NCBI GenBank assembly: GCA_022764275.1
Contig: JALERH010000172.1
Coordinates: 1-64,000, forward strand
Origin: Blautia sp.
GTDB taxonomy: Bacteria; Bacillota; Clostridia; Lachnospirales; Lachnospiraceae
Reading direction: 5' to 3'
DNA: 64,000 nt
This document shows, piece after piece, positions 6,130 to 57,867 of the stretch (the stretch's first letter is position 1; each line of letters starts with the position of its first letter). The translations under genes were made by a program, and so were the position numbers. The notes under the pieces were generated by a model that saw only the letters and a list, made by a program, of their open reading frames with translations, searched no databases and was not told the origin of the DNA.

Positions 6130-6490
6130 AATCCCCGGTTCCATGTCCCTTTAGGACGAGAACCGGGTCCCGTGATACCACCTAATTTCGCAGAAGACTC
6201 GCATCTTCTGCCTCCGTAAGTGACGCATTCAGATTCAAGTCGAACGCACGTGAGACTTGGCGCGCGATTCTGGTCAGCTTAAGCTGACATCTTTCTTCTC
6301 CGACTGAGATAAATGATCACCCCAGCGCGATAACGGGCGCCGCTCCGCTGCAGCCTACTGATCGTCAAAACGTTCGGTGCAAAGCTCCGGGATGTATTCA
6401 CACAGGTTCCACAGGTGCCTCTCACCAGCCGGCAGCTCTCTGTCTGCTTTCCCAATGCTACTCTTTCCCTTCAAAGCCTTTGTCATTTGA
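6130..6490 (-). ncRNA. T-box leader of tyrS, tyrosine specifier
   Basis: On the minus strand: T-box sequence AGGTGGTATCACGGG, a CCCGGTTC...GAACCGGGGATTTTTT terminator, and a specifier-loop context GAATACATCC with UAC (Tyr) at 6394-6396. Confidence 0.93.
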
Positions 6491-33851: not shown

Positions 33852-34075
33852 GTTGGGTATAAAATCAACAAAATTTGTGATTGAGGAAAAAATTCAGCAA
33901 ATTTTCCATTTTTATAAAAAATCAACGAATATTTTCGTCATATCGGGGAATTTTATTTCCGTAGAAATTTTTACTTTCCTTATCCATTAAAATGTCGTAT
34001 AATAGCATTGTAAATGATAAAAATTTAACAATCAATAGCCGCACGGCCAGGATTCAACGAAAGGAGCATACAATC

Positions 34076-35065
34076 ATGAAGATCTTATTTTATGGCACCA
34101 AAAACTATGACCAGCAGTTTTTTGACAAGCTTTTGCCTGATTATCCGGGAATTGAAATCAAATTCATCGAGGCAAATATTCACGAAGATACCGCATCCCT
34201 TGCAAAGGGTTATGAAGCCATCTGTGCTTTTGTAAATGCTGATCTTTGCACCCAGGTCATCGAAGAGCTGAATCGCCAGGGTGTGAAGCTTATTCTCATG
34301 CGCTGTGCCGGATATAATAATGTAGACCTGGAAACGGCTCACAAATATGGCATGAAGGTACTGCGTGTACCGGGATATTCTCCGGAAGCCGTTGCTGAGC
34401 ACGCCATGGCACTTGTTCTGACTGCAAACCGCCACACGCACAAGGCTTATATCAAATGCCGTGAGAACAACTTTGCATTAAACGGCCTTATGGGCGTCAA
34501 CCTTTACCAGAAAACCGCCGGCATCATTGGCACCGGAAAGATCGGCCAGGCTATGGCGCGTATCTGCCAGGGTTTTGGAATGAAAGTTATCGCATATGAT
34601 CTTTTCCCGAATAAGAACCTTGATTTCCTGGAGTATGTATCTCTGGATGAGCTTCTTGCCACAAGTGATCTGATCAGCCTTCACTGCCCGCTGACAGACG
34701 AGACAAAGCATCTGATCAATGCTTCCACGATTGCGAAAATGAAAGATGGTGTAATTCTGGTGAATACCTCCCGCGGCGGTCTGATCAAAACAGAAGACCT
34801 CATCGCAGGTATCCGTGATCATAAATTCTTTGCGGTAGGTCTGGATGTTTACGAGGAGGAGACAGATTACGTATACGAAGATATGTCGGAGCGTATCATG
34901 CAGACTTCTCTGATTCAGCGTCTTCTCTCCTTCCCGAATGTAACCATGACTTCCCACCAGGGATTCTTTACAGAGGAAGCGCTTACCAACATCGCGGAAA
35001 CAACACTTGGAAATGCATATGCCTTCATGAATGGTGAAGAACTGAAAAATGAAGTAATTTCCTGA
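34076..35065 (+). CDS. ldhA: D-lactate dehydrogenase / D-2-hydroxyacid dehydrogenase
   Basis: GIIGTGKIGQAMARICQGFGMKVIAYD, LVNTSRGGLI, RVPGYSPEAVAEHAMAL. Confidence 0.9.
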   Translation: MKILFYGTKNYDQQFFDKLLPDYPGIEIKFIEANIHEDTASLAKGYEAICAFVNADLCTQVIEELNRQGVKLILMRCAGYNNVDLETAHKYGMKVLRVPGYSPEAVAEHAMALVLTANRHTHKAYIKCRENNFALNGLMGVNLYQKTAGIIGTGKIGQAMARICQGFGMKVIAYDLFPNKNLDFLEYVSLDELLATSDLISLHCPLTDETKHLINASTIAKMKDGVILVNTSRGGLIKTEDLIAGIRDHKFFAVGLDVYEEETDYVYEDMSERIMQTSLIQRLLSFPNVTMTSHQGFFTEEALTNIAETTLGNAYAFMNGEELKNEVIS

Positions 35066-35089: not shown

Positions 35090-35271
35090 AAAATCCTCTG
35101 ACGGGGCCTATATGAAATTTTAGAGTTCCCAGGCCCCGTTTGCATCTCAAATCCGTGAAAATACACAGTTTTATAGGGCAAATTTTCTCTATACTGAAAA
35201 AATTGCTTCTGAGACCCCGTTTTTAAGTATTTCCGGGATCTGGGGAAGCAATTTTTTTGTATGGATACTTT
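35090..35271. repeat. Structured intergenic repeat, copy A
   Basis: Hairpin 1 ACGGGGCCT...AGGCCCCGT (35101-35139); CAAATTTTCTCTATAC; hairpin 2 ATTGCTTCtgagaccccg...GAAGCAAT; GTATGGATAC. Shared layout with 45994-46170 and 55123-55304. Confidence 0.8.
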
Positions 35272-35289
35272 TGATATTGGAATTAAAAA

Positions 35290-36123
35290 CTATTCCTCAT
35301 ACATTTTTCTCAGAAGCGCAATCTCTCTCGCCCAGCCTTCGTCATCGTTCGGCGTTTCCAGGATAAATGGCCTGCCTTCCAGCGCAGGATGACGCACAAC
35401 ACGCACCAGTGCATCCAGCCCGATCTGTCCCTCTCCTATCTTTGCATGGCGGTCTTTGTGGCTTCCCAGTCCGTTCTGGCTGTCATTCAGATGAATGGCC
35501 TTCAGATTGGAAAGTCCGATGCAGCGGTCGAATTCTTCCAGAACACCGTCCAGATCATTCACAATATCGTATCCCCCATCCCACACATGACAGGTATCCA
35601 GACAAACTCCTATTTTGTCTTTCTTCTCCACAAGATCCATGATGGCTTGGATCTCCTCAAATTTTCCACCTACCTCAGAACCCTTTCCGGCCATGGTCTC
35701 CAGAAGCACTGTAGTCGTCTGCTCATCCGTCAGTACATCATTCAGAATTTCTGCAATTTTTTCAATGCCGGTTTCCATTCCCTGTCCTACATGGCTGCCG
35801 GGATGAAAATTATAATAATTTCCCGGCGTCGCTTCCATACGCCGCAGGTCATCTGCCATGGTCTCTCTGGCAAACACACGAAGGTTTTCCTTTGCCGCAC
35901 ATGCATTCAGTGTATAAGGCGCGTGCGCCACGATTTTTCCGAAATGCTGTTCTCCGGCAATCTCCAGATATTTTTTAACATCTTCTGGATCAATTTCCTT
36001 TGCATTGCCGCCCCTGGGATTTCTGGTAAAAAATGCAAAAGTATTTCCGCCGTTTTTCACCATCTGACGTCCCATTGCCGCATAACCTTTGGAAGATGTT
36101 GTATGATTTCCGATATATAACAT
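35290..36123 (-). CDS. nfo: Endonuclease IV (deoxyribonuclease IV)
   Basis: AP endonuclease 2 motifs: [49 protein letters not shown]. Confidence 0.95.
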
Positions 36124-44521: not shown

Positions 44522-44651
44522 ATTCTTCACCCCGGATATCTTACCATAATTTCCTTGCCAATTCCACACGAAAAAGGTATTATTAGGTAGAGTAACCGGA
44601 CGGATTTACAGACCGGAACTTTTATATTCTATCTTTGGAGGTATGAATCAA

Positions 44652-45761
44652 ATGGAAAAAGCAAAAGTATATTATACGAATATGCGTACTGGTTTTAACA
44701 ACAATCTTCTTGACAAACTGGCCCGCCTGATCAAAACTGCCGGCATCGGCAATATTGATTTTGACGGAAAATACACCGCAATTAAGATTCATTTCGGAGA
44801 GCCGGGTAACCTGGCTTACCTTCGTCCCAATTATGCAAAGGTCGTAGCCGATGTGGTCAAAGAGCTTGGCGGCAAACCTTATCTCACAGACTGCAATACG
44901 CTGTATGTGGGAGGCCGTAAAAATGCTCTGGATCATATAGATACTGCTTACACAAACGGATTTTCTCCCTTTTCCACAGGGTGCCATGTCCTGATCGGTG
45001 ACGGGCTGAAGGGAACTGACGAGGTATATGTTCCGGTAGAAGGCGGCGAATACATAAAAGAAGCGAAAATCGGACGTGCCATTATGGATGCGGATGTGTT
45101 TATTTCCCTTACCCATTTCAAGGGCCATGAAGCAACCGGATTTGGCGGTACTCTGAAAAATATTGGTATGGGCTGTGGTTCCCGCGCAGGGAAGATGGAA
45201 ATGCACAGTGCCGGAAAACCCCATATCGACCGTGATCTCTGTATCGGCTGTCACCGTTGTGAAAAAATCTGCGCACACGGCGCACCTTTCTTCACAGATA
45301 AGAAAGCAAACATCGACCATGACAAATGCGTAGGCTGCGGCAGATGCATCGGAGTCTGTCCAAAGGATGCCGTACTTCCGGCTTCCGATGAATCCAACGA
45401 CGTTCTGAACTGTAAAATTGCAGAATACTCCAAAGCAGTTATCGACGGTCGTCCGAATTTCCACATCAGTCTCGTTATTGATGTATCTCCGTACTGTGAC
45501 TGCCATGCGGAAAACGATGCAGCCATTGTACCGGATGTAGGATTCTTTGCCTCCTTTGACCCGGTTGCTCTGGATGTGGCATGTGCCGATGCCGTAAATG
45601 CACAGCCGGTCATCGCCAATACGGTGCTGGCTGAGTCCGACCATGAAGGACATGATCACTTTGGCGCTGTTTCCCCGGATACCAACTGGCATTCCTGCAT
45701 TGAACATGCGAAGAAGATTGGACTGGGGACGGATGAGTATGAATTGATTGAAGTTCGGTAA
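44652..45761 (+). CDS. DUF362 domain 4Fe-4S protein
   Basis: Two ferredoxin clusters CIGCHRCEKICAHGAP and CVGCGRCIGVCPKDAV within a DUF362-like protein. Confidence 0.92.
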   Translation: MEKAKVYYTNMRTGFNNNLLDKLARLIKTAGIGNIDFDGKYTAIKIHFGEPGNLAYLRPNYAKVVADVVKELGGKPYLTDCNTLYVGGRKNALDHIDTAYTNGFSPFSTGCHVLIGDGLKGTDEVYVPVEGGEYIKEAKIGRAIMDADVFISLTHFKGHEATGFGGTLKNIGMGCGSRAGKMEMHSAGKPHIDRDLCIGCHRCEKICAHGAPFFTDKKANIDHDKCVGCGRCIGVCPKDAVLPASDESNDVLNCKIAEYSKAVIDGRPNFHISLVIDVSPYCDCHAENDAAIVPDVGFFASFDPVALDVACADAVNAQPVIANTVLAESDHEGHDHFGAVSPDTNWHSCIEHAKKIGLGTDEYELIEVR

Positions 45762-45922: not shown

Positions 45923-45993
45923 TTCCTCACACATCCCCCCATATAGTTGGAGACATACCTTAATATTTTCTTCTGTCCTACAGAAATTGTTTC

Positions 45994-46170
45994 AGTTTGG
46001 GCATATGCGGAGGGCAATTCTTCCTCAGGCCCAATATCATGGGAATTCTTATGAAAATATAAGAATTTTGCCTGCAATTTTCTCTATGTCGGTATAAAAT
46101 ACTCCCCAGACCCAGAATTTTGCGTTTTTCTGGGTCTGGGGACAAATTTTGTTTGCTGTAGATACAAAAG
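45994..46170. repeat. Structured intergenic repeat, copy B (most diverged)
   Basis: TTGGGC...GCCCAA; CAATTTTCTCTATG; 15-bp perfect stem TCCCCAGACCCAGAA/TTCTGGGTCTGGGGA (46104-46143); ...TAGATAC. Confidence 0.65.
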
Positions 46171-46275
46171 ACATCTAAAATGCCCTGTTTTACCGTAAAA
46201 TCCCAGGAAATTTTCTCCAGCGAGGTATCTTTTTTCATATATGCCCAAAAGTGTTTCGAACAGCAGCAACTGTTC

Positions 46276-47346
46276 TTACCTTTCTCTTCTCTCTATGCCG
46301 CGTTCCCGGTAGAATCGTCTTTTTTCCTCATACATCTCTTTTTCCGCATTTTTGATAAGGGTGTCCATATCAATGGAACTACAGGTCTGAGTCGCATGTC
46401 CGACAGAGATGTGATAATTTTCTTTTTCTACAGAATGTATGACTGCATTCATTTTTTTCTCTATCTCTTCTGATGCTGCATCTGTGATAAATACTACAAA
46501 TTCGTCTCCGCCTATGCGGTAAGTATCCTTTTTCCCGAATTGCGCCTGCAGAACCGAAGCGATGTATTTCAGCATGATATCTCCGGCTTCATGACCTTTG
46601 GTGTTGTTAAGCTCATGAAGACCATTTACGTCAATATAAATGCTGGTAAGAGTTTTTCTGCACAGTGACGGATATTCTTTCATACTCATCTCAAAAGAAT
46701 TTCTGTTCCGAACCCCTGTGAGCATATCCATTTCGCTTAAGGTGATGGCCTGTTGTTCATAAAGATATCTCTGACATTTTACGCTCATCATATAAGAGCT
46801 GACAATAGCGCTTATGGTTCCGAAAACTACTGCGTCTGTAATATCTACCAGGAGTACAGAGCCTTCCTTGACACAGCATGCCATGATGACAAAAACGGTC
46901 AGATGACAAAAAATACTCGCAATCATTCTGATGGGTTTGTCCGTAAAAAGAAGCGGAACCGTAAGAAGCAGTGCAATAAAAACCACTGTCTGCTCGTCTG
47001 AATCCGAGAATGCGCCCATCATAATTCCAAAAACGAACATGGCACTCATAAAAACATGAATCAGGATCTGGATATGGCACTGTTTCGCAATTCCAAATAC
47101 AGTACACGAAAAAATACAACCGGAAAACACAGCGAAGCAGGCATAAATCCAGCGATATTCATCCAGACCGGAAATCCGCAGAGAAACCAGGAACATTATC
47201 GCCAGAAATACCGTTGCGATTGCGGAAAACATGATCAGGTTCTTTCGATTGCTTTCCCTGATTTCCTCCCTGATCTGGTCATATTCTGTTCTGCTCACTC
47301 CACCGTATAGCAGAAATTTCTTCCATGAGTCCATAAATTTTTTCAT
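46276..47346 (-). CDS. Membrane-bound diguanylate cyclase (GGDEF)
   Basis: N-terminal TM bundle, C-terminal GGDEF domain with YRIGGDEFVVFITD. Confidence 0.92.
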   Translation of the reverse strand: MKKFMDSWKKFLLYGGVSRTEYDQIREEIRESNRKNLIMFSAIATVFLAIMFLVSLRISGLDEYRWIYACFAVFSGCIFSCTVFGIAKQCHIQILIHVFMSAMFVFGIMMGAFSDSDEQTVVFIALLLTVPLLFTDKPIRMIASIFCHLTVFVIMACCVKEGSVLLVDITDAVVFGTISAIVSSYMMSVKCQRYLYEQQAITLSEMDMLTGVRNRNSFEMSMKEYPSLCRKTLTSIYIDVNGLHELNNTKGHEAGDIMLKYIASVLQAQFGKKDTYRIGGDEFVVFITDAASEEIEKKMNAVIHSVEKENYHISVGHATQTCSSIDMDTLIKNAEKEMYEEKRRFYRERGIERRER

Positions 47347-53844: not shown

Positions 53845-54882
53845 TTATTCTGCCTTTTCTTCTTTCGGGGAGGCTTCCTCGCCGATACGCTCTGCAATCT
53901 TTTCGTTGATCTTTTCCTGCTTAAACTGAACACACTGGAAAATCGCATGCTTTATCTCAATGGCTTTTGCACTGCCGTGTGTCTTGACCACAAGGCCTTT
54001 CAGTCCCAGAAGCGGAGCACCGCCATACTCACTGGCGTCGAAAGCCTTTAAGGTTTCTTTCATCGCCGGTTTCACCAGAAGGGCTCCCACTTTGCTGCGG
54101 GTAGTTGCCATCATTCCGGCTTTCAGCATTTTGACAAGAGTCGAACCAAGACCCTCATATAATTTCAGGATCACGTTTCCCACGAATGCCTCGCAGACTA
54201 CTACATCCGCATAACCTGCCGGGATATCCCTTGCTTCAATGCTTCCAATAAAATTGATGCTCTTACACTCCTTCAGAAGCGGGAAGGTTTCTTTTACCAG
54301 AGCATTCCCCTTTTCTTCTTCCGCGCCATTGTTCACAATGGCTACACGCGGATTTTTGACTCCGACCACATTTTCCATGTAAATGGAACCCATCTTTGCA
54401 AACTGTACCAGATGGGATGGTCTGGCATCCACGTTTGCCCCGCAGTCGATCAGAAGAGAGACACCCTTTTCTGTGGGAATCAGCGGAGCAAGAGGCGGAC
54501 GCTCCACACCTTTACTCCTGCCCACCAGTACCTGTCCGCCTACAAGAATGGCACCGGTACTGCCGGATGAAACAAATGCATCTGCTTCCTGTTTTTTTAC
54601 CATATTCAGGCCTACCACAATGGAAGAATCCTTCTTTTTCCGGATAGCCATAACCGGAGCCTCAGCCGTTTCGATCACTTCTGTGGTGTTCACCACCTGG
54701 ATTCTTTCTTTGGGGTAATTCTGATATTTTTTCAGTTCTTCTTCAATGACATCCTGCTTTCCTGTTAAGATCACAAGAATGTCGCTTCTTTCCATAACGG
54801 CGTCCACCGCGCCCTTCACTGGCTCTGTCGGGGCATTGTCGCCGCCCATGGCGTCTACTACTACTCTAACTGTTTCTGCCAT
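53845..54882 (-). CDS. plsX: Phosphate acyltransferase PlsX
   Basis: VVVDAMGGDNAPTEPVKGAVDA, SSGSTGAILVGGQVLVGR. Confidence 0.95.
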   Translation of the reverse strand: MAETVRVVVDAMGGDNAPTEPVKGAVDAVMERSDILVILTGKQDVIEEELKKYQNYPKERIQVVNTTEVIETAEAPVMAIRKKKDSSIVVGLNMVKKQEADAFVSSGSTGAILVGGQVLVGRSKGVERPPLAPLIPTEKGVSLLIDCGANVDARPSHLVQFAKMGSIYMENVVGVKNPRVAIVNNGAEEEKGNALVKETFPLLKECKSINFIGSIEARDIPAGYADVVVCEAFVGNVILKLYEGLGSTLVKMLKAGMMATTRSKVGALLVKPAMKETLKAFDASEYGGAPLLGLKGLVVKTHGSAKAIEIKHAIFQCVQFKQEKINEKIAERIGEEASPKEEKAE

Positions 54883-54980: not shown

Positions 54981-55031
54981 TAGAATACGCTATTTTTCCC
55001 ACCCAATGGGTGTCTGGTTATTACTATTCAT

Positions 55032-55447
55032 GGCTTAGCCGAATAAGCTTTTTCAATAGTCATCTATTGAATGGGTGTTCCACAGGAGTGTGGCACCCAT
55101 TCTTTCATAGAATACCTATCAGAAAATCCTCAGCGGGGTCTATGCAGAATTTTTTCGCCCCCAGATCCCATTTTCCACAAAAATGAGGGAAAAATCACAA
55201 CTTTTCATGCCAAATTTTCTCTATACAGAAAAATCATCTTCTGAGACCCCGCTTTTTAAGATCTCCGGGGTCTGAGAACACAATTTTTCCGTATAGATAC
55301 TTTTTGCATACTAGTTTGCCGTCTTTTACTTGAATTTCCTGGTAAATGGGCTCTGTCTATGAATTTTTTCTGCATAGACCCAGGGTTGCTTATTTTCCGG
55401 CAACCCTTTCAATGGCTCAACATTGAAAATGCTCATTCGGCTAAGCC
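55032..55447. repeat. Nested inverted-repeat element between the NUDIX gene and plsX
   Basis: Outer arms 55032-55057/55422-55447 (24/26 complementary), inner arms 55136-55149/55368-55381 (14/14), side hairpins at 55069-55102 and 55383-55405. Confidence 0.8.
55123..55304. repeat. Structured intergenic repeat, copy C
   Basis: AAAATCCTCAGCGGGGTCTAT...CCCCCAGATCCC...CCAAATTTTCTCTATACAGAAAAATCATCTTCTGAGACCCCG...CGGGGTCTGAGAA...ATTTTTCCGTATAGATACTTTT; aligns with copy A. Confidence 0.8.
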
Positions 55448-55484
55448 GTCCGCCGGATTTGACACGACATCATGCAATTATTTT

Positions 55485-55991
55485 CTATTTAAAATAGCTC
55501 TCATCCAATGGAAGCGCAATCTTCTTCCCGTCCAGGACAGCCTCCACCAGTTCATCGCCCTCGTAGCTGAGCTTTAATGAAAAGAAGGGCGCACCATCCC
55601 GAAGCAGTTTCAGGAAAATATAGTCTCCTATCCAGAGATTCAGCTTCCCGATTTCCTTTTTCGGGACCCACTCCAGAGTGCCCTCATCACACTCCTTCAG
55701 CGTACCGGTAAAACCGTCTGCCGTGTACAGGCACATATATTCCGTTCCATAGCCTTCCTGGGTAAAAGTCACGATTCCGCGAAAGCGCCAGTCGGTAAGC
55801 GTCAGTCCTGTTTCTTCCATTGCTTCTCTGAGGAGACACTCTTCCGGACTCTCCCCTTTCTCCAAATGTCCGCCGATTCCAATCCACTTGTCTTTGTTCA
55901 CATCGTTCTTTTTGGAAATCCGGTGGAGCATCAGATAGGAATCGTCTTTTTCAATATAACAAAGCGTAGTTAAAGGACTTTTCATTTGCAT
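55485..55991 (-). CDS. NUDIX hydrolase (8-oxo-dGTP diphosphatase-like)
   Basis: Nudix box GGHLEKGESPEECLLREAMEETGL (GX5EX7REUXEE). Confidence 0.92.
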   Translation of the reverse strand: MQMKSPLTTLCYIEKDDSYLMLHRISKKNDVNKDKWIGIGGHLEKGESPEECLLREAMEETGLTLTDWRFRGIVTFTQEGYGTEYMCLYTADGFTGTLKECDEGTLEWVPKKEIGKLNLWIGDYIFLKLLRDGAPFFSLKLSYEGDELVEAVLDGKKIALPLDESYFK

Positions 55992-56016
55992 CCCGTCTCC
56001 TTCCTGTAGTATCAGG

Positions 56017-57867
56017 CTATTTCCGGCTCTTTTCCGCTTCAATTCGCTCCGCCAGGTCGTTTAAGTATACCCAGCGATCCATTTTTTCTTCCAGCAGCTG
56101 CTCGGCTGTTTCCTTTTCCTCCATGATCTGCCGAAGCTTCATGGAGTTCGTGGCATTGGCCAGGATATCATCATCCAGTTTTGCAATTTTTTCTTCCAGA
56201 GAGGCAATCTCGTCGTCAATGGTCTCAAATTCCCTCTGTTCCTTATAGGTAAATTTCAGTTTCTCCGGACGGTTCTGTTTCCAGTCTTTGGAAGAAGTTT
56301 TCTTTCCTACACCTTCTGCTTCCTGTGTTCCTGCATTTTTCCTGTTTCCGCCGCCCGCCGGAACATCCACACCGTTTCCGGACTCTTTTGCTTTTTTTGC
56401 CAGAGCATAATCCGTATAACCGCCTTCATACTGAACCAGCTTTCCCTCTTCCTCAAACGCAAAGATGCGGTCCACCACATCGTCCAGAAAATAGCGGTCA
56501 TGGGATACTGCAATGACGATTCCGGAAAAGGACGAAAGATAATCCTCCAGAATCGTAATTGTAGGAATGTCCAGGTCATTGCTGGGCTCGTCCAGAAGCA
56601 GTACGTTGGGTGCTTCCATAAGGACTTTCAGAAGATACAGTCTTCTCTTTTCCCCGCCGGAAAGCTTGGCAATGGGCGTGTACTGCATGGCAGAGTCAAA
56701 CAGAAACCGCTCCAGCATCATGGATGCGCTTATTTTTCCATCTCTTGTAGGGATATATTCCGCCACATCCCGAATGTAATCGATTACTCTCTGATTGTTA
56801 TCCATATCCGGAACTTCCTGGGCAAAATAACCGATCTTAATGGTCTCTCCAAGCTCTACCTCTCCAGAATCCGGTGCAAGGATTCCGGCAATCATTTTGA
56901 TCAGAGTGGATTTTCCGCAGCCGTTTGGTCCGATAATTCCCAGACGCTGATTTCGAAGTACAATATAATCAAAGTCGTCTATGATGGTTCTGTCTCCATA
57001 ATGCTTGCTGATATGATGGAGCTCCACCGTCTTTTTTCCCATTCTGGTTTCCACAGAATCCAGCTCCACATTCGCGTCCTGCACAGGCGCTTTCCCGTTT
57101 TTCAGATCCTCCAGACGCATGAGCCTTGCCTTCTGTTTGGTGCTTCTGGCACGGCAGCCCCGTTTGGCCCATTCCAGTTCCATCCGAAGGATGCTCTGGC
57201 GCTTTCGCTCACTGGCAAGCTCCATCTCCTCACGCTGTGCCTTCATCTCCAGAAATTCGGAGTAATTTGCCTCATAGGAATAAAGCTTTCCATGGCTGAT
57301 CTCCAGAATTTTGTTGGTGACACGATCCAGAAAATAGCGGTCGTGGGTCACCATGAGAACGACACCCTTAAACCGGATCAGAAAATCCTCCAGCCAGGTT
57401 ACCATCTCATTGTCCAGATGGTTGGTAGGCTCATCCAGGATCAGCACGTCTGACGGATTCACCAGAGTCCTTGCAAGCGCCACTCTTTTTTTCTGCCCTC
57501 CGGAAAGATGGGAAATCTCCTCCTCGTGTTCCGAAATTCCCAGCTTATTCAGAATATTGCGCGCCTCACTTTCCGTGCTCCAGTCCCTCTGCCATTTCCC
57601 ATCGGCCACATAGTCCAGAACGTGTGCGCCATCGGGAAAATCTGGATTTTGGGGCAGGTATGTCACACGAAGGCCATTCTGGGTAATGATCTGTCCCTCG
57701 TCCGGTGTTTCCAGGCCTGCGACAATCTTCAGAAGCGTGCTTTTCCCGGTTCCGTTAATTCCAATAATTCCGATCTTATCTCCTTCATGTACCCCATATG
57801 AGATATCGTCAAATATGACTTTGTCACCAAAAATCTTGCTGACGTGTTCTATATTCAAAACATTCAT
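56017..57867 (-). CDS. ABC-F family ATP-binding protein (Uup-like)
   Basis: Two ABC cassettes (GINGTGKST/LSGGQKKRV, GPNGCGKST/LSGGEKRRL) plus C-terminal coiled coil. Confidence 0.93.
   Translation of the reverse strand: MNVLNIEHVSKIFGDKVIFDDISYGVHEGDKIGIIGINGTGKSTLLKIVAGLETPDEGQIITQNGLRVTYLPQNPDFPDGAHVLDYVADGKWQRDWSTESEARNILNKLGISEHEEEISHLSGGQKKRVALARTLVNPSDVLILDEPTNHLDNEMVTWLEDFLIRFKGVVLMVTHDRYFLDRVTNKILEISHGKLYSYEANYSEFLEMKAQREEMELASERKRQSILRMELEWAKRGCRARSTKQKARLMRLEDLKNGKAPVQDANVELDSVETRMGKKTVELHHISKHYGDRTIIDDFDYIVLRNQRLGIIGPNGCGKSTLIKMIAGILAPDSGEVELGETIKIGYFAQEVPDMDNNQRVIDYIRDVAEYIPTRDGKISASMMLERFLFDSAMQYTPIAKLSGGEKRRLYLLKVLMEAPNVLLLDEPSNDLDIPTITILEDYLSSFSGIVIAVSHDRYFLDDVVDRIFAFEEEGKLVQYEGGYTDYALAKKAKESGNGVDVPAGGGNRKNAGTQEAEGVGKKTSSKDWKQNRPEKLKFTYKEQREFETIDDEIASLEEKIAKLDDDILANATNSMKLRQIMEEKETAEQLLEEKMDRWVYLNDLAERIEAEKSRK

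Follow-up and report, generated by a model that had tools for sequence, protein, structure and literature searches.

A structured intergenic repeat of Lachnospiraceae, probably a family of MITEs with a terminator-like central hairpin

Introduction

Prokaryotic MITEs, which are non-autonomous transposable elements, are recognised by their length, inverted repeats, direct repeats, AT-rich composition, intergenic location, and origin from insertion sequences (PMC10969869). Other described systems close to the repeats reported here are the BOX, RUP, and SPRITE repeats of pneumococci (PMC3049150), the A/T-flanked bidirectional terminators of low-GC Firmicutes (PMC1590033), the REP/BIME sequences of RAYT transposases (PMC2817692), and the ISL3-family insertion sequences.

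We describe a repeat family recognised from three copies (A, B, and C) in a stretch of 64,000 nucleotides of a Blautia sp. contig (JALERH010000172.1, positions 1 to 64,000; hereafter the window). The family is very probably one of ISL3-mobilised MITEs, whose central hairpin resembles a bidirectional terminator and appears to have been exapted in some eroded copies, such as copy A.

Results

A multi-copy intergenic family

The stretches at 35090-35271 (copy A), 55123-55304 (copy B), and 45994-46170 (copy C) have the sequence features given in the original prediction, which took them for a family of structured intergenic repeats showing compensatory changes. They are homologous and not chance similarities: BLAST places copy A at 38 or more positions of its own genome (G000; 2.63 Mb in 205 contigs, 92% complete) at E < 0.001, and a covariance model built from 28 copies (R1), which matches on both strands, finds at least about 70 loci, including copies B (55128-55388) and C (45991-46253). 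None of the 70 copies lies inside a called gene and all are intergenic. About half of the copy A BLAST matches are in the wrong orientation because the central hairpin, HP2, is palindromic, and only after the matches were oriented did the complete unit become visible. The two predicted hairpins are present, but the predicted size of about 180 bp is too small, the unit being approximately 250 bp long and including one more hairpin, HP3, a mirror image of HP1; copy A is truncated on its 3' side at nfo.

There are at least three subfamilies, with a common layout and differing arm sequences. Copy A (35096..35288, plus strand; R1 match 35096-35340, 154.9 bits) aligns with complete copies as a subfamily I core that has lost its right side and is without HP3. 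Its parts, placed by sequence and alignment columns, are HP1 (ACGGGGCCT / AGGCCCCGT; 35101..35139, plus strand), containing the outer word W1 and its partner w1', the left inner box W2 (TTCTCTATAC; 35185..35194, plus strand), HP2 (35200..35258), and the right inner box W3' (GTATGGATAC; 35259..35268, plus strand). No outer arms remain, and its membership of the family thus rests on its core.

Copies B and C differ in subfamily, their sequences assigning B to subfamily I and C to subfamily III. Copy B (55128..55388, plus strand; R1 289.3 bits) is a complete core with HP1, HP2, and HP3, and has a left outer arm of the T type (TTACTATTCATGGCTTAGCCGAATAAGC...; 55018..55127, plus strand), found at 18 or more places in the genome, and a right T-type arm (55389..55449, plus strand; minus-strand match 55403-55449) that ends early within the inverted repeat. 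Beside it, at 55441-55479, a T-type arm is joined to an ISL3-arm-like fragment (GCCGTCCGCCGGATTTGACACGACATCATGC) in a mosaic of several repeat families. Copy C (45991..46253, plus strand; R1 92 bits, and 189.2 bits with the second model, R2, described below) is a complete core adjoined by the remnant of an ISL3-type right arm (GAACAGCAGCAACTGTTCTTA; 46254..46278, plus strand), and other subfamily III cores continue with the same sequence.

By codon-scored gene calls, which are simple and not a proper annotation, copy A lies between convergent genes (33992-35065, plus strand, and 35290-36123, minus strand, nfo), as predicted, while the contexts predicted for the other two had been interchanged: copy B is in a tandem interval between minus-strand genes (53845-54882 and 55485-56042), and copy C is between convergent genes (44643-45761, plus strand, and 46276-47346, minus strand).

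A 20-base pattern finds the motif in Lachnospiraceae MAGs from the ruminant gut and in a Eubacterium MAG, and the covariance model has several to tens of matches in each of six such genomes. The matches repeatedly have sizes of 78, 99, 180, and 260 bp, which looks like the gain or loss of modules of roughly 80 bp. The second model (R2), built from 50 copies from several genomes, has matches in at least 16 of the 299 Lachnospiraceae genomes sampled, this one included and nearly all of different genera, but in a 398-genome sample of the phylum it matches this genome only, and in the genus sample of 31 genomes it finds nothing besides this one, so that the element is absent from 30 sister species. 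This distribution is patchy, as for mobile DNA. Plasmid, phage, and viral-contig collections gave no match to the core or composite (none among viral contigs). A covariance-model search of this genome and of related Clostridia had been proposed as a check on the prediction, and the family was recovered in this genome and in other Lachnospiraceae.

No named family had been recognised, and this holds: no Rfam family exceeds its gathering threshold for copy B or for the eight-word element L134, and the only one to do so in the window is a T-box leader elsewhere (6149-6483, minus strand, 103 bits). The segment 55019-55234, comprising copy B with its arm, has a weak full-length match to the C. difficile sRNA family SQ1002 (21.8 bits against a cut-off of 128), which is probably a resemblance between palindromes.

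The core folds end to end

The complete unit is an imperfect palindrome whose left half resembles the reverse complement of its right half. In the oriented alignment HP1 is CGGGGTCTATGC...AGACCCC, HP2 is CTCTATAC...GAGACCCCG/CGGGGTCTG...GTATAGATAC, and HP3 is GGGCTCTG...GCATAGACCCCG. In many elements (alignment A2) one six-letter word stands at eight places in alternating orientation: in L134 all eight are GGGTCT, in L171 seven of them are GTATCT, and L136 has GGGCAT/GGGTAT. The inner word pair of the window's genome deviates (TTCTCT, GTATCT). The core has a GC content of 0.40, compared with 0.458 for the window.

A structure of local hairpins pairs 77.9% of alignment cells with a covariation score of 0.238, and an end-to-end foldback pairs 82.0% with a score of 0.279, compared with 0.06-0.11 for slid controls; the alignment rows in these counts are related to each other, and the shuffles leave that relatedness in. 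Pairing is most complete for the outermost words, W1-W4' (92% of cells), and HP2 (91%), followed by HP1 (79%) and HP3 (66%). The end-to-end foldback is the best-supported fold, with HP1 and HP3 as alternatives to it. The CTATAC and GTATAG boxes that were predicted to extend the second hairpin can indeed pair, but the prediction's hairpin 1 belongs, with HP3, to a competing local fold; two separate hairpins are the less well supported fold, the end-to-end form pairing more cells. Fold z-scores are -3.4 for the whole of copy A, -5.75 for copy B (as the end-to-end foldback), and -4.8 for copy C. Words that share an orientation, and so cannot pair, also match within elements of other genomes (W1-W2 0.956 vs 0.761 shuffled), whereas in the window's genome they are mostly without a match and it is mainly the pairing partners that covary.

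Covariation well above the controls, stable folds (z from -3.4 to -5.8), and a core common to composites with different outer arms could together describe a structured RNA family, either a cis-regulator or a small RNA, selected as a transcript and only incidentally mobile. Such a family would not be expected to be as inconsistent in position and strand relative to genes as the full copies are (5 convergent, 24 tandem, and 5 divergent), or to be missing from 30 sister species; no Rfam family is matched, and the best-conserved pairing is that of the terminal repeat W1-W4', as expected of the ends of a DNA element. We consider this explanation improbable. Because much of the pairing belongs to the terminal and subterminal inverted repeats of a mobile foldback element, covariation need not mean RNA function, and the selection on structure suggested earlier stands only in part.

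Outer arms carry the footprints of transposition

The same core is found inside three types of outer arm, G (GGTTCTTTCTGAACTTTGGG), T (GTTACTATTCACGGCTTAGCC), and ISL3 (GGSTCAATCA). Complete composites are 350, 375, 477, 518, 522, 526, and 637 bp long with no transposase gene inside, and those of subfamily III (518-637 bp) have terminal inverted repeats beginning GGSTCAATCA. Four have exact 8-bp target duplications: a G-type composite of 375 bp at L197 (CATTCTTT), a T-type composite of 477 bp at L034 (CAGAAATG), and ISL3-type composites of 637 bp at L067 (AAAATATT) and 526 bp at L073 (ATTTTTAT). A further ISL3-type composite at L067 (522 bp) has a duplication matching at 7 of 8 positions, and the 350-bp G-type composite at L057 has a 6-bp duplication, GAAAAA; several old copies are without one, and most copies are without recognisable complete ends. 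The 637-bp composite is nested in a subfamily II core; when it is removed together with one of the two 8-bp copies, the sequence left matches another subfamily II copy without interruption over 260 bp (80.8%), so that this alignment provides an empty site within the same genome.

Another Lachnospiraceae genome (G775) has an insertion sequence whose open reading frame is a DDE_Tnp_ISL3 protein (E 5.7e-31). The end of this insertion sequence that lies upstream of the transposase aligns with the right arm of the 637-bp element at 79.6% identity (E 5e-54), beginning at the outermost base and running inward for 250 bp. The subfamily III composites are thus ISL3-derived MITEs and, since one arm is the end of an ISL3-family insertion sequence, a transposase of that family would be their mobiliser. 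An ISL3 origin is apparent from sequence for this one arm type, searches having found no matching transposases for the G and T arms. No autonomous transposon with GGTTCTTTC arms was found in G000 or G041, which contain just MITEs and truncated arms, and a PF01610 search returned two fragments only, one in G000 that is interrupted and one in G045 that is unrelated. The transposon origin, evident from the 8-bp target duplications, the nested insertion, and the ISL3 arm, had escaped the original prediction.

Several further configurations were seen near arms and cores. At L175 (1276-1770, contig C26 of G000) an ISL3-family transposase gene of the same genome is broken off by a subfamily III copy, placing the MITE within a gene of its presumed mobilising family. 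At L193 (about 1480-1530, contig C48 of G000) the 3' end of a trpA-like gene holds a relic of only two T-type ends (ATACTATTCACGGCTAAGCCGTGAATAGTA) lying end to end; by inspection it has a 9-bp repeat, AAGGATGCC. In L017, L018, and L019 the left flank next to the core has two to three copies of a short direct repeat of the type GGAATACCTGTCAAAAAATCA.

Palindromic intergenic units in alternating orientation, and their mosaics of modules, also recall the REP/BIME type of family, in which a RAYT (Y1) transposase is the mobiliser, yet the 8-bp duplications and the arm of an ISL3 element with its DDE transposase make this highly improbable. Target duplication is not expected of Y1 enzymes. A second possibility is that the core moves on its own, using the W words as ends, and has been inserted into several unrelated MITEs, which would account for the same core in three outer-arm types and for copies with little or no recognisable arm. 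However, when the flanks were inspected by eye, the edge of the core (the W words) showed no target duplication, all of the footprints found are at the outer arms, and arms and core have also been reshuffled, as in the chimeric L004, L013, and L025, which explains the sharing without transposition of the core; an independent core is unlikely. The evidence leans to common descent of the shared core with exchange of arms, rather than to an independently useful module.

The central hairpin has the form of a bidirectional terminator

HP2 of copy A is a GC-rich stem between an A-tract and a T-tract, terminator-like on both strands, with a z-score of -6.5 and T tails of 7/8 on one strand and 6/8 on the other. 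Across the family a U-rich tail follows HP2 in 48 of 51 copies on the plus strand and 44 of 51 on the minus strand (median z -5.7), so that in form HP2 is a putative bidirectional terminator, with a GC stem and a U-tract on both strands. In subfamily II the hairpin folds no better than shuffles and has a U-tract on one strand only, possibly reflecting a loss of bidirectionality. The left inner box of subfamily II (L062, L064, L065, and L066) is changed to CTCTGGAGAAG.

Insertion does not look selected for termination, as the arrangement of genes around full copies resembles that of gene pairs overall (7 convergent, 35 tandem, and 7 divergent in the window). Among truncated copies in which HP2 survives, 5 of the 8 informative ones lie between convergent genes, compared with 5 of the 34 full copies (p 0.012), and this bias, although from small numbers and simple gene calls, fits later exaptation.

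In several sister species ldhA and nfo are neighbours, and all seven of the short junctions read are without the element. In most of the sister junctions the genes nearly abut, and that of G011 has a normal short bidirectional terminator (AAAACTCTCCGG...CCGGAGAGTTTTT). Copy A fills the gap between these genes in the window's genome, where there is no other obvious terminator. Given the terminator form of HP2 on both strands and the position of copy A between convergent genes, the copies might be ordinary intrinsic terminators that are alike through convergence; this is refuted by the alignment, which extends the homology over 250 bp, beyond HP2, at about 70 loci, and the sister-locus terminator in G011 is short and unrelated. 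Convergence retains next to no probability.

Discussion

We conclude that the core is, most probably, the palindromic centre of a group of Lachnospiraceae MITEs whose complete composites are 350-640 bp. Acting in trans, an ISL3-type transposase would use the outer ends and take along the foldback core, whose outer words pair end to end and whose inner boxes pair around the GC-rich HP2 with its A- and T-tracts. HP2 would be expected to stop transcription from either side and so make insertions between genes tolerable. As the mobile ends decay, some copies, including copy A, would keep HP2 between convergent genes, probably as their terminator.

This scheme is ordinary MITE biology; what is unusual is that three arm types have one core in common and that a word specific to the subfamily occurs in it eight times. 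A more speculative proposal, which we think has a limited though real chance of being correct, is that the core is a distinct module captured repeatedly by different transposon ends, the eightfold word being the recognition code of a needed protein or a means of mutual hairpin pairing, with words and recogniser co-evolving. The shared core and a word that changes as a set at eight places present a testable puzzle concerning the purpose of a MITE interior. The family adds a MITE superfamily to the Lachnospiraceae, a major gut family, our search of the literature on Lachnospiraceae and Roseburia MITEs having found nothing relevant, and explains many of the repeats at contig ends of draft genomes in this group. 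The passage from mobile hairpin to host terminator can be followed in a natural series made up of mobile composites, copies that have eroded, and sister loci where the terminator is an ordinary one.

Among described systems, the REP/BIME sequences of RAYTs (PMC2817692) share palindromic, intergenic units in alternating orientation, and differ in being associated with a Y1 transposase, where the present family has 8-bp duplications and an ISL3 arm. HP2 is like the A/T-flanked bidirectional terminators of low-GC Firmicutes (PMC1590033) in its GC stem, 5' A-tract, and 3' U-tract, but is borne by a mobile element, has a longer loop (about 14 nt), and has extra pairing boxes outside. The pneumococcal BOX, RUP, and SPRITE repeats (PMC3049150) are likewise modular, insert into one another, are in some cases terminator-like with a proposed co-option as terminators, and are rare in relatives; they have other hosts and no sequence relation was seen, and they are over-represented between convergent genes whereas the full copies here are not. 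The ISL3-family insertion sequences are linked to the family by the 8-bp duplication and by the subfamily III arm, 80% identical over 250 bp to the end of one of them, although the element described here has no transposase gene. Like prokaryotic MITEs (PMC10969869), which are typically < 500 bp and have target duplications in younger copies, the family is short and gene-less (the 637-bp composite being longer), has terminal inverted repeats of three end types (G, T, and ISL3) and target duplications, is multi-copy, AT-richer, and intergenic, folds into stable stem-loops, and shares its ends with an autonomous insertion sequence in the subfamily III right arm, such ends not having been found for the G and T arms. 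It differs from other MITEs in the structured core common to three arm types, the foldback of the whole core, and the eightfold word.
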